This document shows, one piece after another, positions 37,088 to 44,987 of a stretch of DNA of 64,000 nt; within the stretch, counting starts at the first letter, position 1, and each line of letters opens with the position of its first letter. Source of the stretch: Balneola sp. (lineage in GTDB: Bacteria > Bacteroidota > Rhodothermia > Balneolales > Balneolaceae); contig JANQSE010000006.1 in NCBI GenBank assembly GCA_028284195.1, forward strand, positions 496,001 to 560,000. The letters are read 5' to 3'. The position numbers were made by a program, and so were the translations under genes. A model generated the notes under the pieces. That model searched no databases. It had not been told where the DNA came from and saw only the letters and a program-made list of their open reading frames with translations.

Positions 37088-37118
37088 TTGCTATTAAATT
37101 TTTGCGCTACTATATTCG
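37088..37118 (+). promoter_or_regulatory. Candidate promoter of the trp operon
   Basis: TTG at 37088-37090, 20 bases, then TATATTCG at 37111-37118, one mismatch from TAnnTTTG and with the same spacing as at 20061 and 4808. It implies a transcription start very close to the leader-peptide ATG at 37126. TAAATTTTTG at 37095 is an alternative -7 box giving a longer leader. Confidence 0.4.
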
Positions 37119-37125
37119 TGCCGAA

Positions 37126-37197
37126 ATGAAAAACACACAACTACATAACACTTCGTGGTGGCCTAATGCTTATATAAGCAGTGGGGTCGTTGTGTAA
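37126..37197 (+). CDS. trpL: trp operon leader peptide (attenuation control)
   Basis: A 23-codon frame, too short for standard gene calling, begins MKNTQLHNTS and then has two adjacent Trp codons (TGG TGG at 37156-37161), ending in Val-Val-Val-TAA. Tandem Trp codons, location 168 bp before trpE and the RNA structures immediately downstream are the textbook arrangement of a trp leader peptide. Ribosome stalling at these codons when charged Trp-tRNA is scarce would free the antiterminator strand. There is no clear Shine-Dalgarno sequence, as is usual in this group. Confidence 0.9.
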   Translation: MKNTQLHNTSWWPNAYISSGVVV

Positions 37198-37226
37198 AAG
37201 ATTTTGTATTAAATACATACCCACTG
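37162..37226 (+). promoter_or_regulatory. trp attenuator: 1:2 hairpin and 2:3 antiterminator
   Basis: Immediately after the Trp codons, 37162-37171 can pair with 37176-37185 (CCTAATGCTT with AAGCAGTGGG; one mismatch and one G-T pair, loop ATAT). Segment 2 of that hairpin, CAGTGGG at 37179-37185, is also a perfect complement of CCCACTG at 37220-37226, the 5' arm of the terminator. The two pairings exclude each other. A ribosome stalled at the Trp codons covers segment 1, so segments 2 and 3 pair and the terminator cannot form. Confidence 0.85.
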
Positions 37227-37253
37227 TTCCTTTGGAAGAGTGGGTTTTTTTTT
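37220..37253 (+). terminator. Intrinsic terminator of the trp attenuator
   Basis: An 11-bp stem (CCCACTGTTCC, 37220-37230, with GGAAGAGTGGG, 37234-37244; one G-G mismatch), a TTT loop and nine T residues at 37245-37253. It lies between the leader peptide and trpE, where a constitutive terminator would silence the operon, so it must be conditional. Confidence 0.92.
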
Positions 37254-37280
37254 GACTTTAACTTTTGATTAACTATAAAT

Positions 37281-37356
37281 GTCATCCTGAAGCTACTGCT
37301 GAAGGATCTTCACAACGTAAAAGAAGTGCGGATTCTTCGCTTTCGCTCAGAATGAC
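37281..37356. repeat. REP-like palindromic element, copy 1 (before trpE)
   Basis: A 76-bp element with inverted ends (GTCATCCTGA ... TCAGAATGAC) and internal GAAGGATCTTC-type segments. Its reverse complement matches 44107-44181 almost throughout: shared blocks include GTCATTCTGAGCG, AGCGAAGAA, AGATCCTTC, GCAG and TCAGGATGAC. It ends 9 bp before the trpE ATG and so sits between the attenuator and the first structural gene. Such extragenic palindromes are usually spread by RAYT transposases or are non-autonomous; no transposase is in the window. Confidence 0.85.
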
Positions 37357-37365
37357 AAGTCTTTT

Positions 37366-38826
37366 ATGAACAAAGAACAATTTTTAGAGCTTAGTAAATC
37401 ATATACAGCGGTTCCGGTGTACAAACGCTTGCTGGCCGATGTTCTGACTCCGGTTTCATTATTTATGAATATCCGTGAAGACGCAGAGAATCCGTTTCTG
37501 CTTGAATCGGTAGAAGGAGGAGAGCAATTAGCGAGGTATTCATTTATTGGCCGGAATCCATACCAGAAGCTGATATTTGATGGAGAGAATACTGTACTGA
37601 AGTCAAAGGCAACTAGCGTTCAAATTGATCAGCCTTATTTTGATGAGCTTAAAGCACAGACAACAAAATATACAGAGCCGCATTTACTGGAATTGCCTCG
37701 TTTAACCGGTGGAGCTGTAGGGTTTTCGGCTTATGATACATTCCGGCTTGTAGAAGATCTTCCAAATGTTCCTGATGATGATCTGCATTTACCAGAAGCC
37801 GTATGGGGATTCTATGATCAGATTTTTGCTTTTGACCATGTAAAGCACCAGATTATATTGATTAAAACAGTTTTCATCGATGATGAAACTGATATCGAAG
37901 TGGCATATGAACACGCTTTAGAAACTTTATCCGAAATGGAAGAAGCAGCGATGAGTGGAAATATGAAAAGAAGAGATTTTAATATAGATACCAAATCTCT
38001 TTCTAGTAATATTGAGAAAGCCCGTTTTACTTCGATGGTAGAAAAAGCCAAGGATTATATTTACGAAGGAGACATTTTCCAGGTAGTACTATCTCAGCGA
38101 TTCGAGGCCACGATGCATGGAGATGCTTTTATGCTTTACCGAGCTTTGCGAATGGTAAATCCTTCTCCATATCTGTTCTTCCTTGATTTCGATGGTTTCC
38201 AGCTGGTAGGTTCTTCTCCTGAAGTTCTTGTGCGGGTACAGGATTCAGAGGTTAGAGTACTTCCAATAGCCGGAACACGCCCCAGGGGGAAAACTCACGA
38301 AGAGGATCTGGAGTTGGAATCTGATTTAAAGTCTGACCCTAAAGAAGTTGCTGAACATATCATGTTGGTTGATCTGGGTCGAAACGATCTCTCAAGGGTA
38401 TCGAAACCTGGAACAGTAAAGTTGGAAAGAAATCAGGTTATAGAACGATATTCGCATGTAATGCACATTGTAAGTGATGTTGTAGGGGAGATTTCGAATG
38501 ACAAAACATCGGTGGATGCATTGATGCAGTGTTTCCCTGCCGGTACGGTGAGCGGCGCGCCAAAAATACGGGCTATGGAAATAATTGATGAACTGGAGCC
38601 TGTTAAACGGGGTATTTATGCCGGAGCAGTAGGTTATTTCGACTTTTCGGGAAATATGGATACATGTATTGCTATACGTACGATGGTTGTTACGGATAAC
38701 AAAGTTTATATTCAGGCCGGCGCGGGTATAGTAGCGGATAGTGATCCGGTTAAAGAATTTGAAGAAACACAAAATAAAGCGGGTGCGCTAATACAGGCAC
38801 TTAGCATAGCACTTAATATAGAATGA
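37366..38826 (+). CDS. trpE: Anthranilate synthase component I
   Basis: Converts chorismate and ammonia to anthranilate. The feedback-inhibition motif 'LLES' is present in 'NPFLLESVEGGEQLARYSFIG' (about residue 43), suggesting Trp inhibits the enzyme. The chorismate-binding domain covers about 215-480, with 'IFQVVLSQRFE', 'LVGSSPEVLVR', 'IAGTRPRGK' and 'CFPAGTVSGAPKIRAMEI' (about 387). The length of 486 residues is typical. The ATG follows the REP-like element by 9 bp, leaving little room for a ribosome-binding site. Overlaps trpS by four bases. Confidence 0.97.
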   Translation: MNKEQFLELSKSYTAVPVYKRLLADVLTPVSLFMNIREDAENPFLLESVEGGEQLARYSFIGRNPYQKLIFDGENTVLKSKATSVQIDQPYFDELKAQTTKYTEPHLLELPRLTGGAVGFSAYDTFRLVEDLPNVPDDDLHLPEAVWGFYDQIFAFDHVKHQIILIKTVFIDDETDIEVAYEHALETLSEMEEAAMSGNMKRRDFNIDTKSLSSNIEKARFTSMVEKAKDYIYEGDIFQVVLSQRFEATMHGDAFMLYRALRMVNPSPYLFFLDFDGFQLVGSSPEVLVRVQDSEVRVLPIAGTRPRGKTHEEDLELESDLKSDPKEVAEHIMLVDLGRNDLSRVSKPGTVKLERNQVIERYSHVMHIVSDVVGEISNDKTSVDALMQCFPAGTVSGAPKIRAMEIIDELEPVKRGIYAGAVGYFDFSGNMDTCIAIRTMVVTDNKVYIQAGAGIVADSDPVKEFEETQNKAGALIQALSIALNIE

Positions 38827-39809
38827 GTAGAAAAACGATCCTTTCAGGCATTCAGCCATCCGGAAAGCTTCATATAGGTAACTATTTTGGAGCAATGAGG
38901 CAGCATATTCAAATGCAGGAAGAAGATGCCGACTCTTATTACTTCATAGCCAATTATCATTCGCTTACTTCTTTAAATGATGGTAAGCAGTTGTATCAGA
39001 ATACGATTGATGTGACTTTGGATTATCTGGCGCTGGGATTAGATCCAGATAAAGCGGTATTCTTTGCACAGTCAGATGTTCCTCAGGTAACAGAACTGGC
39101 CTGGATGTTAGGTACTTTGTGTCCTGTGAGTTTGATGGAAAAAGGAGTTTCCTACAAAGATAAAATTGCTGCGGGGCTTAGTCCTAACGTCGGTTTGTTT
39201 ACCTACCCAATTCTACAGGCTGCCGATATTCTTATTTACCATTCTGATATAGTTCCAGTTGGTGAGGATCAAAAGCAGAACATTGAAATAGCCAGGGATT
39301 TAGCAGGTAAATTTAATCGGGCTTATAACGGGGAATACCTCAGAATACCTGAAGATCATATTTTAAAGTCAGTTGCTGTTGTTCCGGGAACTGATGGGCG
39401 AAAAATGAGCAAGAGCTATGGAAATATCATTCCGCTGTTTGAGGAAGGAAAAGCCTTAAAGAAGATCATCATGTCAGTACAAACCGATTCAAAGGGGCTT
39501 GAAGAGCCTAAAGACCCTGATTCTGATAACGTTTTTGCACTTATTAAGCTTTTTGCATCTGATGAAAAGCAAAAAGAAATAGCCGATCAATACAGAGCAG
39601 GAGGTTTTGGTTACGGTCATGCCAAATTAGAGCTTCTGTCACTTGTTGAGAGCTATTTTGAAGAAGCCAGAGAAAAGCGACGGAATCTTGAAAAAGACAT
39701 CAACTATGTAAAAGACGTGCTCAGAGAGGGTGGTGGAAAGGCCAGAGAGTGCGCAGAATCTGTGATGGAGCCGATCAGAGAAGTTACAGGTATTATCAGG
39801 AGTTTTTGA
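38823..39809 (+). CDS. trpS: Tryptophanyl-tRNA synthetase
   Basis: Class I aminoacyl-tRNA synthetase that charges tRNA-Trp. The HIGH-type motif is 'PSGKLHIGNYFGA' (residues 12-24) and the KMSKS loop is 'GRKMSKSYGN' (about 196). The length of 328 residues is normal. It is placed inside the trp operon, overlapping trpE by ATGA and trpG by TGATG, so it is under the same attenuator that senses its own product, charged tRNA-Trp. No second trpS can be assessed from this window. Confidence 0.97.
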   Translation: MSRKTILSGIQPSGKLHIGNYFGAMRQHIQMQEEDADSYYFIANYHSLTSLNDGKQLYQNTIDVTLDYLALGLDPDKAVFFAQSDVPQVTELAWMLGTLCPVSLMEKGVSYKDKIAAGLSPNVGLFTYPILQAADILIYHSDIVPVGEDQKQNIEIARDLAGKFNRAYNGEYLRIPEDHILKSVAVVPGTDGRKMSKSYGNIIPLFEEGKALKKIIMSVQTDSKGLEEPKDPDSDNVFALIKLFASDEKQKEIADQYRAGGFGYGHAKLELLSLVESYFEEAREKRRNLEKDINYVKDVLREGGGKARECAESVMEPIREVTGIIRSF

Positions 39810-40369
39810 TGGTTTTAATAATTGATAACTATGATTCTTTCACTTACAATCTCGTTCATCTGGTGGCAGCTGTTACCGATGACTACAAAGTTATCCGTAA
39901 TGATGAACTGACCCTCGAAGAAATCAGGGAAATAAATCCGTCAAAGATTCTAATATCTCCTGGCCCGGGTCGGCCGAATGATGCCGGAATAAGTAAAGAG
40001 GTGATCTCCGAGTTAGGTAAATCCACTCCGATTTTAGGAGTGTGCTTAGGACATCAGGCGATTGGAGAAGTGTTTGGAGCTAAAGTTAGCTACGCTCCTA
40101 AACTTATGCACGGCAAAGTTTCGCGGGTTTTACATGATGGAGAAAGTGTATTCATGGACGTGGAACAAAATTGTATTGCAACAAGGTATCATTCCCTGGT
40201 GTTAGCACCAGACTCCATTCCTGATATACTGGAGGTTACAGCTACTTCCGAAGAAGTAATCATGGGTGTAAGGCACAAAGAATACCCAATTGAAGGAATT
40301 CAGTTCCATCCGGAAAGTATTCTAACCACAGAAGGCCCAAAGATGATTAAAAACTGGTTGGAGCAATAA
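39809..40369 (+). CDS. trpG: Anthranilate synthase component II (glutamine amidotransferase)
   Basis: Supplies ammonia to TrpE by hydrolysing glutamine. The class I amidotransferase triad is visible: Cys in 'GVCLGHQAIGEVFGA' (about residue 78), His and Glu in 'IQFHPESILT' (about 165). The start is ATG 39809, in TGATG with the trpS stop, giving 'MVLIIDNYDSFTYNL', the standard beginning; the frame is open 20 codons further upstream but that sequence is trpS. 186 residues, a stand-alone TrpG not fused to TrpD. Confidence 0.96.
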   Translation: MVLIIDNYDSFTYNLVHLVAAVTDDYKVIRNDELTLEEIREINPSKILISPGPGRPNDAGISKEVISELGKSTPILGVCLGHQAIGEVFGAKVSYAPKLMHGKVSRVLHDGESVFMDVEQNCIATRYHSLVLAPDSIPDILEVTATSEEVIMGVRHKEYPIEGIQFHPESILTTEGPKMIKNWLEQ

Positions 40370-41409
40370 TGACATTCAAAAATATCTTAAATAAGCTTTC
40401 TTTTTCAGAAGATTTAACGGAGATCGAAGCAGGTTGGGCTCTCACTCAGATCATGGAAGGGGAAGTACCGGAAGAGCAAATCGCTTCTTTCCTTACAGCA
40501 TTGAGGATTAAAGGAGAAACGGTAACGGAATTAACCTCTTTTGTGAAAGTGATGCGTGAAAAATCTGTCAAAGTTGATGTTGATGTTACCAATGCCATTG
40601 ATTTGGTCGGGACAGGGGGCGATAAATCCGGAACTTTTAATATTTCAACGGCAGCTACATTTGTGGTAGCAGGAGCTGGTGTTCCTGTTATAAAGCATGG
40701 TAATCGCAGTGCTTCAAGTAAATGTGGTAGTGCAGATGTTTTGGAGTATCTTGGAGCAGCTATTGAGCTTGGTAAAGAAGGTGTAGAACAGGTTTATAAT
40801 GAGGTTGGGATGGCTTTTATGTTCGCTCCGATGTTTCATCCTGCTATGAAATATGTAATGCCAACAAGAAGATCACTTGGTTTCAGAACGTTCTTCAATA
40901 TTCTGGGACCTATGTCAAACCCGGCTGGTGTACAGAAATATGTAATAGGTGCTTTTGATGTGGATGTTGCTTCAAAAATGGCATCAATTCTCGCTAATCT
41001 CGATACAAAATTTGCCTACACTTTTCATGCAGAAGACGGGTTAGACGAAGTGAGCATAACCGGAGAATCTACAGTGTTCGAACTGGCGAATCAATCAGTG
41101 TCTGATTCCTACCGCTTTGACCCGGAATCAATTGGCTTTAAAAAGTACACAATGGATGAGTTGATGGGCGATGATGCTGAGAAGAATGCTTTCATTCTGA
41201 AAAGCATTCTTGCTAACACATCTACTGAAGCACAAAAAGATATCGTACTCATAAATGCTGCTTTTGCAATTCATGCTTCCGGAATGGTTGATTCCTTGGA
41301 AGAAGCAAAAAAGAAAGCGACATACAGTCTTGAAAGTGGCAAAGCAAAAGAAGTGCTCAACAACTTCATTGATACAACTAATGATGCTAAGGGAGTGTTA
41401 AAACACTGA
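40369..41409 (+). CDS. trpD: Anthranilate phosphoribosyltransferase
   Basis: Transfers phosphoribose from PRPP to anthranilate. The PRPP-binding 'DLVGTGGDKSGTFNIST' (about residues 77-93), 'VIKHGNRSASSKCGSADVLE' (about 107) and the later 'FMFAPMFHPAMKYVMPTRRS' region are standard. The length of 346 residues is typical. One-base TAATG overlap with trpG and TGATG with trpC. Confidence 0.97.
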   Translation: MTFKNILNKLSFSEDLTEIEAGWALTQIMEGEVPEEQIASFLTALRIKGETVTELTSFVKVMREKSVKVDVDVTNAIDLVGTGGDKSGTFNISTAATFVVAGAGVPVIKHGNRSASSKCGSADVLEYLGAAIELGKEGVEQVYNEVGMAFMFAPMFHPAMKYVMPTRRSLGFRTFFNILGPMSNPAGVQKYVIGAFDVDVASKMASILANLDTKFAYTFHAEDGLDEVSITGESTVFELANQSVSDSYRFDPESIGFKKYTMDELMGDDAEKNAFILKSILANTSTEAQKDIVLINAAFAIHASGMVDSLEEAKKKATYSLESGKAKEVLNNFIDTTNDAKGVLKH

Positions 41410-42227
41410 TGAGTACAATTCTGGACCAAATAGTTAAGCAAACCCTTGAAGACCTTTCTTCCCGAAAAAAGGAGATTAGTTTTAACGACCTGCATTCGTT
41501 AGAAGGTTTCGAAAAACAACGCATTGATTTTAAGAGCGCTTTGCAAAAGGAAAATACGGTTTCAATTATTGCAGAGGTAAAGAAAGGTTCTCCTTCAAAG
41601 GGGGTGATTCGGGAAGACTTTAATCCGATGGATATTGCGCTGAGTTATGAAGATGGAGGAGCCTCTGCAATTTCTGTATTAACCGATAAACCTTTTTTCA
41701 TGGGTGATCTGGATTATCTGAACTCTATTTCTAAACGAGTTCAACTTCCACTGCTCAGGAAAGATTTTATAGTAGATCCATTCCAGATCAAAGAAGCGAG
41801 AGCTTATGGTGCTGATGCAGTACTCATTATTGTTGCGATAACAGAAGGGAATCAATTGGATGAACTGCTTGCTGCTGCGAAAGAATTCGGTTTATCAGCA
41901 TTGGTTGAGTGTTATGATGAGCATGATTTTGATCGACTTGATTTCTCAAAAGTTGACATTCTTGGTGTGAATAACAGAGATCTTAAAAACTTTGAGGTTG
42001 ATGTACATCGGGGAATAAACATTCTTCAAAGAGCTCCGGAAGGAACCGTGCTGGTTTCTGAAAGCGGATTAGCATCCGGAAAAGATCTGGCTTTGCTACA
42101 AAAAGAAGGTATACACTCTGCCTTGATTGGAGAGTATTTTATGAGGCAAGTAGATCCTGGATTAGCAGTTCGGTCTCTGCTGGAATCATTCGAAGAACAA
42201 TTTGATGGGGATGTCGAAAATGCATGA
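41409..42227 (+). CDS. trpC: Indole-3-glycerol phosphate synthase
   Basis: Closes the indole ring from CdRP. TIM-barrel motifs: catalytic Lys in 'IIAEVKKGSPSKG' (about residue 54), 'LLRKDFIVDPFQI' (about 115), 'LVECYDEHDF' (about 165), 'LGVNNRDLKNFEVD' (about 184) and 'VSESGLASGKDLALLQ' (about 217). 272 residues, a single-function enzyme with trpF as a separate gene. Start overlaps the trpD stop (TGATG). Confidence 0.97.
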   Translation: MSTILDQIVKQTLEDLSSRKKEISFNDLHSLEGFEKQRIDFKSALQKENTVSIIAEVKKGSPSKGVIREDFNPMDIALSYEDGGASAISVLTDKPFFMGDLDYLNSISKRVQLPLLRKDFIVDPFQIKEARAYGADAVLIIVAITEGNQLDELLAAAKEFGLSALVECYDEHDFDRLDFSKVDILGVNNRDLKNFEVDVHRGINILQRAPEGTVLVSESGLASGKDLALLQKEGIHSALIGEYFMRQVDPGLAVRSLLESFEEQFDGDVENA

Positions 42228-42861
42228 TCTAACAAAGATAAAGGTATGCGGGCTTACCAATCTTGAAGATGCCCGTTTTGCTTCTGGTCTGTTCGTGGAT
42301 TACCTGGGATTCATTTTCTATGAGAAAAGCCCTCGTTTTATCGATCCTGCTAAAGCAGGTGCTATCATAAACTGGCTCGAAGGTCCAAAAAAAGTAGGCG
42401 TATTTGTAAATCAACCATTGGATGAGGTGAATGCACTGGCCAAAGAAACCGGTCTGGATTTGGTACAGCTTCATGGCGAGGAATCTGTTGAATATTGCAG
42501 TTTGGTTGAAAAACCAGTGATTAAGGTTTTTCATATCACAGCTGAAACTATTAAAGATGAGCTTGAAAAAAACATCGGTAAGTATAAAGAAATGGTCGAC
42601 TTTTTTCTTTTTGATACGAAGATTGGAGATCAAAGAGGAGGAACCGGACAAACGTTTGACTGGGATAAACTGCATGAATTAACTGATAAAGAATTCTTTC
42701 TTTCCGGTGGATTGAATGCAAATAACGTTGGAGATGCAATCCAACAGGTAAATCCTTACGCTGTTGATGTATCAAGTGGAATTGAAGAAGAACCGGGGCT
42801 TAAAGACCTGGAAAAAATGGAAAAGTTCGTTAGAGCTGTTCGACCGGAAGAATTTATTTGA
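42220..42861 (+). CDS. trpF: Phosphoribosylanthranilate isomerase
   Basis: Amadori rearrangement of phosphoribosylanthranilate to CdRP. 'KIKVCGLTNLEDARFA' at the N-terminus has the catalytic Cys; 'LHGEESVEYC' (about 88), 'GGTGQTFDWDKL' (about 138) and 'LSGGLNANNVGDAI' (about 161) complete the set, with the general-acid Asp in 'LFDTKIG'. Several in-frame starts (42202-42220) exist; ATG 42220 is chosen because a GGGGA Shine-Dalgarno-like sequence precedes it and it overlaps the trpC stop by 8 bp. 213 residues. Confidence 0.95.
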   Translation: MHDLTKIKVCGLTNLEDARFASGLFVDYLGFIFYEKSPRFIDPAKAGAIINWLEGPKKVGVFVNQPLDEVNALAKETGLDLVQLHGEESVEYCSLVEKPVIKVFHITAETIKDELEKNIGKYKEMVDFFLFDTKIGDQRGGTGQTFDWDKLHELTDKEFFLSGGLNANNVGDAIQQVNPYAVDVSSGIEEEPGLKDLEKMEKFVRAVRPEEFI

Positions 42862-42891
42862 AGGCTTTAAAGAAGTAACAGAGATTTGACT

Positions 42892-44091
42892 ATGAATCAG
42901 GAAGTAAAAGAAACATACCAACAGCCTAACAAAAAAGGCTATTTCGGTAAGTATGGAGGGAAATTCGTTCCGGAAATACTTATCCCTGCAGTAAAGGCAT
43001 TAGAAGAGGAATATGAGCGCGCTAAGAACGATCCTGAATTTCTTGGTAGCTTTCATTCGCTATTGGAAGAATATGTTGGTCGGCCAACAGAGTTGACTTT
43101 TGCCAACCGTTTAACTGAACACTACGGCAAAGCGCGTATCTATCTTAAAAGGGAAGATCTTTGCCATACCGGAGCGCATAAAATAAATAATGCCATCGGT
43201 CAGGTTTTATTAGCACAGAGAATGGGTAAGAAGAGAATTATTGCAGAAACAGGAGCGGGCCAGCATGGCGTTGCCACTGCAACAGCATGTGCCAAATTTG
43301 GTCTGGATTGTGTGGTTTACATGGGAGCTGAGGATATGGTTCGTCAAAAGCTCAACGTTGATCGTATGACTTTGCTTGGCGCAGAAGTAAGAAGTGTGGA
43401 AAGTGGGTCAAAAACACTCAAAGATGCTACGAATGAAGCTATTCGGGATTGGGTAACCAATGTAGAAGACACTTTTTATATCATAGGTTCAGTGGTAGGG
43501 CCTCATCCTTATCCAATGATGGTTCGTAATTTTCATCGCGTGATTGGAGATGAAACCAGGAGGCAGATCATGGAAGCAGAAGGAAGGATTCCTGATTACC
43601 TGATAGCGTGTGTTGGAGGTGGATCTAATGCAATGGGTTTTTTCTATCCGTTTATTGATGATGAAATAAATATTATCGGAATTGAAGCTGCGGGATATGG
43701 AGTTAACTCTGGAAAAACGGCTGCTACAATAACTAAAGGTACTCCCGGTATTCTTCATGGATCAATGAGTTATCTGTTGCATGATGAGAACGGACAAATA
43801 GAATTAGCACACTCAATCAGTGCCGGATTGGATTATCCAGGAATAGGACCGGAACATTCATTCCTTCATGACTCGGGAAGAGTAAACTATCATGCAGTAA
43901 CCGATTCAGAAGCGATGGAAGCTGTTAAGCTTCTATCAAAGACAGAAGGTATTATTCCGGCATTGGAAACTGCTCATGCTTTTGCATGGCTTGAAAAGCT
44001 AATGCCATCTACTGAAGTTAATGAAGTAGTGGTTGTAAATTGTTCGGGCAGAGGAGATAAAGATATGGGTACTATTTCGGAAAACTTGTAA
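42892..44091 (+). CDS. trpB: Tryptophan synthase beta subunit
   Basis: PLP enzyme joining indole and serine. The PLP Lys is in '[13 protein letters not shown]' (about residue 98), '[14 protein letters not shown]' (about 120) and the phosphate-binding '[12 protein letters not shown]' (about 242) are clear, with '[10 protein letters not shown]' at the C-terminus. The length of 399 residues marks a TrpB1-type subunit that works with TrpA. ATG 42892 preferred over a TTG two codons earlier. It begins 30 bp after trpF and is separated from trpA by the second REP-like element. Confidence 0.97.
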
Positions 44092-44106: not shown

Positions 44107-44181
44107 GTCATTCTGAGCGTTAGCGAAGAACCTGCAAATTGAGTAACTATGCAGATCCTTCGGCAGCAGCCTCAGGATGAC
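44107..44181. repeat. REP-like palindromic element, copy 2 (between trpB and trpA)
   Basis: A 75-bp element beginning GTCATTCTGAGCG and ending CTCAGGATGAC, the inverted partner of the copy at 37281-37356 (same element, opposite orientation, differing at scattered positions in the core). It lies 15 bp after the trpB stop and ends 8 bp before the trpA ATG. In the transcript it would form a long hairpin between the genes of the two subunits of one enzyme. Confidence 0.85.
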
Positions 44182-44189
44182 AAGAAAGC

Positions 44190-44987
44190 ATGAACAGAAT
44201 TAAAAGGAAATTTGAAGAACAATCTGCGGGTGAAAAGCTGATGAGTTTGTTCATCACTGCAGGATATCCTGACCTTGATTCAACCGTAGAGCTGGTTTTA
44301 GGAATGGAAAAGAACGGGGCTGATATCATAGAATTAGGTATTCCATTCAGTGATCCACTAGCAGACGGTCCTACTATTCAGTATTCAAGCGATATCGCTA
44401 TTAAAAACGGCATTACCATCGATAAGATTTTTGAAATGGTAAGTAAAATTCGTGAAGTCTCTCAAATACCAATTATCCTCATGGGATATATGAATCCAGT
44501 GCTTAGGTACGGTGTAGAGAAGTTTTGCGAGAATGCTGCAAAATCAGGAATAGATGGATTAATTCTACCCGACGTTCCTGTTGATGAAGATGAGATCATC
44601 AAAAAAAATATCTCAGATAATGATCTAGCAATGATTCACTTGGTTGCTCCAAACAGTACAGACGTAAGGATGAAGCTGGCGGATTCCAAGTCCTCAGGGT
44701 TTGTGTATTGTGTTTCTGTAACTGGTGTAACAGGAGCGCGGGATGGTGGCGAAATATCTAGTTCTGTTGATACATTCATCCAGCGGGTAAGAAAAAACAT
44801 AACAGAAAACCCAGTTATGATCGGTTTTGGTATCAAATCTTATGAAGACGCACAGAACATAGCATCAAATGCCGATGGATTTATAGTGGGAAGTGCATTA
44901 ATTAATTGCATCAAAAAATCGTATCCTGAACCCGGCTGGAAACAGGAATTGTTTTCTTTGGTACACTCATTAAAACACGGAAATTAA
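44190..44987 (+). CDS. trpA: Tryptophan synthase alpha subunit
   Basis: Cleaves indole-3-glycerol phosphate to indole for TrpB. The catalytic Glu and Asp are in 'IIELGIPFSDPLADGPTIQ' (about residues 47-65), followed by 'LMGYMNPVLRYG' (about 102), 'GLILPDVPVDE' (about 127) and 'GFGIKSYEDAQ' (about 210). 265 residues, complete. It closes the trp genes; the next gene starts after 10 bp with no terminator between. The REP-like element directly upstream may hide or replace its ribosome-binding site (AAGAAAGC before ATG). Confidence 0.97.
   Translation: MNRIKRKFEEQSAGEKLMSLFITAGYPDLDSTVELVLGMEKNGADIIELGIPFSDPLADGPTIQYSSDIAIKNGITIDKIFEMVSKIREVSQIPIILMGYMNPVLRYGVEKFCENAAKSGIDGLILPDVPVDEDEIIKKNISDNDLAMIHLVAPNSTDVRMKLADSKSSGFVYCVSVTGVTGARDGGEISSSVDTFIQRVRKNITENPVMIGFGIKSYEDAQNIASNADGFIVGSALINCIKKSYPEPGWKQELFSLVHSLKHGN

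Follow-up and report, generated by a model that had tools for sequence, protein, structure and literature searches.

The DNA analysed here (the window) is a stretch of 64,000 nucleotides from a 2.68-Mb genome, of which Balneola sp. are the nearest named relatives, in keeping with the original prediction, which took the genome to be Balneolota-like. It carries a tryptophan operon on the forward strand, in the order trpE-trpS-trpG-trpD-trpC-trpF-trpB-trpA, and the gene identities were confirmed. The first gene is trpE, encoding anthranilate synthase component I (37366..38826; TIGR00564 above cut-off), and the second is trpS, encoding tryptophan--tRNA ligase (38823..39809; TIGR00233 above cut-off). 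They are followed by trpG (39809..40369), trpD (40369..41409), trpC (41409..42227), trpF (42202..42861), trpB (42886..44091), and trpA (44190..44987). The position of trpS is constant among relatives, since it lies directly 3' of trpE in 30/30 loci with enough downstream sequence (L007-L036). Because trpS is inside the operon, a switch placed ahead of trpE would adjust both tryptophan synthesis and tRNA charging. Such an arrangement suggests a loop that places the sensor, charged tRNA-Trp, under joint control with the enzyme that makes it.

Two other elements of this genome deserve a description. A REP-like interspersed element (37280..37357, forward strand) lies between the leader terminator and trpE and is not part of the attenuator described below. 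The element occurs again at 44107-44182, between trpB and trpA, and five other stretches of the genome match it; a similar element is found at the same place in one relative (L011) and is absent in another (L012). Elsewhere in the genome, hisG (L237, reverse complement, G000:C12) is preceded by a His-rich leader ORF that reads VKGTQSHTIHLFRNAHHLHHGHHHVQ up to its stop and contains nine His, with TATCTTTG close 5' of the GTG of this ORF. The region 3' of the hisG leader ORF holds weak hairpins alone and no clear terminator.

Leader elements, promoter and folding

Directly before the trpE operon, the leader can adopt three pairings that exclude one another and carries an intrinsic terminator, all on the forward strand. 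The leader peptide ORF (37126..37197) has 23 codons, encodes MKNTQLHNTSWWPNAYISSGVVV, and is read directly from the ATG at 37126 to the TAA at 37195-37197. Its tandem TGG codons for Trp (37156..37161) are the predicted site of ribosome stalling. Hairpin 1:2 (37162..37185; CCTAATGCTTATATAAGCAGTGGG) is inside the ORF and directly 3' of the Trp codons; the original prediction gave the same coordinates, and its statement that the hairpin starts one base after the codons has to be corrected, as it begins immediately after the second TGG. Region 2, CAGTGGG (37179..37185), is an alternative partner for region 3, CCCACTG (37220..37226), which is common to antiterminator 2:3 and terminator 3:4. The intrinsic terminator (37219..37253) consists of a stem at 37219-37245, with 11 bp and one internal mismatch, and a U tract of nine T at 37245-37253. 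The 23-codon frame with its adjacent Trp codons, the exclusive pairing, the 11-bp stem, and the nine T before trpE had all been predicted and were read directly here.

Three features expected of a trpL-type attenuator are present at this locus: a short predicted ORF that precedes a trp gene and has tandem Trp codons, a terminator with a mutually exclusive antiterminator, and, with modest support, a hairpin 1:2 that abuts the Trp codons. Folding of the whole leader gave a minimum free energy with z = -3.8, and 0/200 shuffles were as good. Single segments were also compared with shuffles. The terminator (z = -4.2) and the antiterminator (z = -2.7) stood out, and hairpin 1:2 alone was weakly better than shuffles in the window sequence (z = -1.4).

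A predicted promoter (37088..37118) was placed 5' of the ORF by a weak consensus scan and by comparison with relatives. It consists of TTG at 37088-37090, 20 bases, and TATATTCG at 37111-37118; it resembles the Bacteroidota TTG / TAnnTTTG type, and its box ends 7 bases before the leader ATG. TTG and TAnnTT boxes recur at a fixed 23-base offset in most Balneolales leaders, at -38/-15, -37/-14 or -36/-13 from the leader ATG. Since the boxes are so close to the ATG, transcription is expected to start within a few bases of it, which would make the trp leader leaderless or almost leaderless.

The state of region 3 in silico depends on the position of the ribosome. In the window, region 3 has a probability of 0.77 of pairing with upstream sequence when a ribosome sits on the Trp codons and region 4 has yet to be transcribed. 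This falls to 0.20 with the ribosome at the stop codon and to 0.19 without a ribosome. The corresponding Balneolaceae averages are 0.75, 0.41 and 0.50. L127, L128 and L139, in which the terminator finder chose hairpin 1:2 as the terminator, were excluded from the folding averages. Once region 4 is present, equilibrium favours the terminator over the antiterminator in all ribosome states, including the stalled one. Therefore, the decision between the two forms has to be kinetic. The trp switch of E. coli is likewise kinetic.

Conservation of the leader and covariation of its stems

Regions upstream of trpE were taken from 55 Balneolales loci (L007-L036, L127-L151), from 20 further class members (L169-L188), and, for other families of the phylum, from 40 genomes (L189-L228). 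A tandem-Trp leader ORF precedes trpE in 52/55, 17/20 and 22/40 of these, respectively, when counted by hand as at least two close Trp codons, a few of them W-x-W. A strict automatic test required both WW within an ORF of 8-60 codons and a terminator 3' of that ORF; it was positive in 25/28 Balneolaceae, 21/27 further Balneolales loci, 12/20 class members and 20/40 phylum genomes. Dinucleotide shuffles of the same upstream regions passed the strict test in 0/560, 1/540, 0/400 and 0/800 cases (1/2,300 overall). Most relatives have TGG TGG TGG, and the window is unusual in that TCG replaces the first TGG. One match, L212, proved to lie in coding sequence (signal peptidase-like), and the counts do not include it.

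The leader was not found everywhere. It was missing before trpE in L130, and the genomes sampled from families f20, f23, f26, f33, f39, f40 and f42 had no tandem-Trp leader. The members of one genus, g5 (L030, L031, L230-L234, L236), lack tandem TGG and keep the terminator, and most of them have a conserved CTAG-containing stretch like TGTYACTAGTGTTTACCCAC before it. The terminator alone may be under another control in this genus. Replacement of the Trp leader by TrpR was considered for g5 and rejected: a strong Trp_repressor hit was obtained in 1/9 g5 genomes (G011, L229), directly 5' of an ORF read as hisG, and not in the other eight, most of which are incomplete. Because of this rarity and of its position beside the hisG-like ORF, the Trp_repressor-family gene of G011 is more likely a his regulator.

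Covariation was scored on an alignment of 22 Balneolaceae leaders. The original prediction had proposed such a comparison, and the leader frame, the tandem TGG codons and compensatory changes were indeed found in relatives. Covariation, which was to be looked for in all three stems, differs in extent from stem to stem. In terminator stem 3:4, 6/11 pairs changed on both sides, in 31 cells; 0/500 shuffles reached this value, which was also above all slid controls. In antiterminator 2:3, 97% of cells are paired, and a single pair shows compensation, from U-A to C-G. Covariation in this stem is thin because it is almost invariant, and 25/500 shuffles reach the same level. Loops of unequal length make region 1 of the MAFFT alignment unreliable, and hairpin 1:2 was therefore not scored on it. 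The stem sequences of this hairpin are diverse (GCTT/AAGC, GCTA/TAGC, GTTC/GAAC, GTTG/CAAC), and an arm fits its own partner slightly better than the partner from another species (3.5 vs 3.1 of 4 paired, p = 0.02). Four placements were tried in this arm swapping, of which two gave p = 0.02-0.04 and two were not below 0.05. The support that these comparisons lend to hairpin 1:2 is modest.

A probable ribosome-mediated switch and its alternatives

From the sequence and its conservation, we conclude that the leader very probably controls the trp operon by ribosome-mediated transcription attenuation (probability roughly 0.93). Transcription would begin within a few bases upstream of the leader ATG, and the first ribosome would trail RNA polymerase. 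When charged tRNA-Trp is scarce, the ribosome would stall at 37156-37161 and cover the 5' arm of hairpin 1:2. Region 2 could then pair with region 3, blocking the terminator, and with the antiterminator formed, transcription would continue through all eight genes from trpE to trpA. When tRNA-Trp is charged, the ribosome would reach the stop codon and cover region 2. Stem 3:4 would then form, and transcription would be expected to end at the U tract.

The terminator might instead insulate the trp operon or end upstream transcription, next to a conserved short ORF and without any switching by Trp. The strength of the terminator, which folds at equilibrium whatever the ribosome does, would suit this role, as would its retention in genus g5 without the Trp codons. 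An insulator would not account for tandem Trp codons that stay fixed beside the hairpin in nearly all Balneolales while the other residues of the peptide vary, for a region 2 that is complementary to region 3 in relatives, or for a predicted promoter directly 5' of the leader. We regard a purely insulating role as very improbable.

The variable residues also bear on a further role that could exist besides attenuation: a trans-acting leader peptide, or a terminated leader RNA with sRNA activity, of the sort described in Sinorhizobium meliloti (PMC7298713). A leader that is leaderless, as predicted, would be made even with plentiful Trp, as in that species. The variation of the peptide among relatives outside the Trp run speaks against action in trans, and a second function of this kind appears quite unlikely.

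Finally, the operon could respond to Trp through a small-molecule or protein sensor, such as a Trp riboswitch, a TRAP-like protein or a T-box, with the ORF being incidental. Trp operons of Firmicutes are known to use TRAP or a T-box. TRAP (PF02081, mtrB) was found in 0/29 related genomes, with B. subtilis as the positive control, and the window contains no T-box or other Rfam match. The feature that is conserved is the Trp codons themselves, which leaves a sensor of this kind hardly any likelihood. The Trp repressor TrpR (PF01371) was not found in the genome to which the window belongs.

Extent in the phylum and relation to known systems

An abstract by Vitreschak et al. from 2004 reportedly mentions attenuators in Bacteroidetes/Chlorobi. 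Naville and Gautheret (2010) wrote that the leader-peptide systems known to them were confined to Proteobacteria and Actinobacteria (PMC2965389). In the same year, RF01692 Bacteroid-trp was described as a Bacteroidetes leader with a Trp peptide (Weinberg et al. 2010, PMC2864571), and a 2021 Flavobacterium transcriptome gave strong clues for leader-peptide attenuation, which was inferred there (PMC9723704). In the light of these two reports, the implied view that such attenuators are uncatalogued in this part of the tree is not supported. As a Trp leader is already known from Bacteroidetes and attenuation has been proposed in Flavobacterium, the kind of system is known, and the remaining claim concerns its extent.

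RF01692 matches 17/198 genomes of the phylum, all from one family, and 15 of these matches are above the cut-off. All 17 have TGG TGG TGG in a short leader ORF, 16 have a terminator 3' of it (by script), and the downstream protein is TrpE-like wherever it was printed. The window is below the gathering score of RF01692, 49 bits, and none of 59 relatives has a match above the cut-off. When 20 leader loci, including that of the window, were compared with all of Rfam, a leader match was obtained in one alone, itself taken from RF01692. For the Balneolota trp leader, we found no Rfam entry at the gathering score and no paper in a literature search. A model built from the Balneolaceae leaders matches other families of the order, the class, and several distant families, and several of its weak matches cover the terminator part alone.

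The predicted trp switch is present across much of the phylum, and Rfam recognises it in hardly more than one family. These results extend the classic mechanism to a phylum in which Rfam recognises a small part of it, and the approximately 90 leader sequences provide a basis for a better RNA family. More tentatively, at slightly below even odds, trp attenuation may be old and widespread in Bacteroidota in the wide sense, with a leaderless peptide, and may act in Balneolota on Trp synthesis and on trpS alike. Its retention would then imply that in this phylum the leading ribosome keeps up with RNA polymerase. Attenuation works only when RNA polymerase is coupled to the leading ribosome, and as a result, the conservation makes coupling in Bacteroidota/Balneolota testable.

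RF01692 Bacteroid-trp shares with the window a Trp peptide leader with Trp codons, a terminator and a TrpE-like protein downstream, but it differs in the core (AAGGCTTGTC...GACAAGCCTT vs CCCRCTG...GAGTGGG). The proteobacterial trpL (RF00513 Trp_leader) has the same layout of Trp codons, 1:2, antiterminator 2:3 and terminator 3:4, a likeness of geometry that had been recognised from the start. The window aligns weakly with the whole RF00513 model, at 22.3 bits, below the gathering score of 41. It differs from trpL in that its leader is predicted to be leaderless and its operon includes trpS. The actinobacterial trp and trpS attenuators are classical, with double or triple UGG, and show that trpS can be controlled in this way; they belong to a different phylum, and trpS is a separate target there, whereas it is inside the trp operon here (Seliverstov 2005, PMC1262725). 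The trpL-trpE(G) system of S. meliloti is alike in its Trp codons, in attenuation without a repressor, and in a leader mRNA that begins at the trpL ATG, a leaderless start that was measured there and is predicted here (PMC7298713). In contrast to the Balneolota operon, this Alphaproteobacterium controls trpE(G) alone, with a peptide of 14 amino acids.
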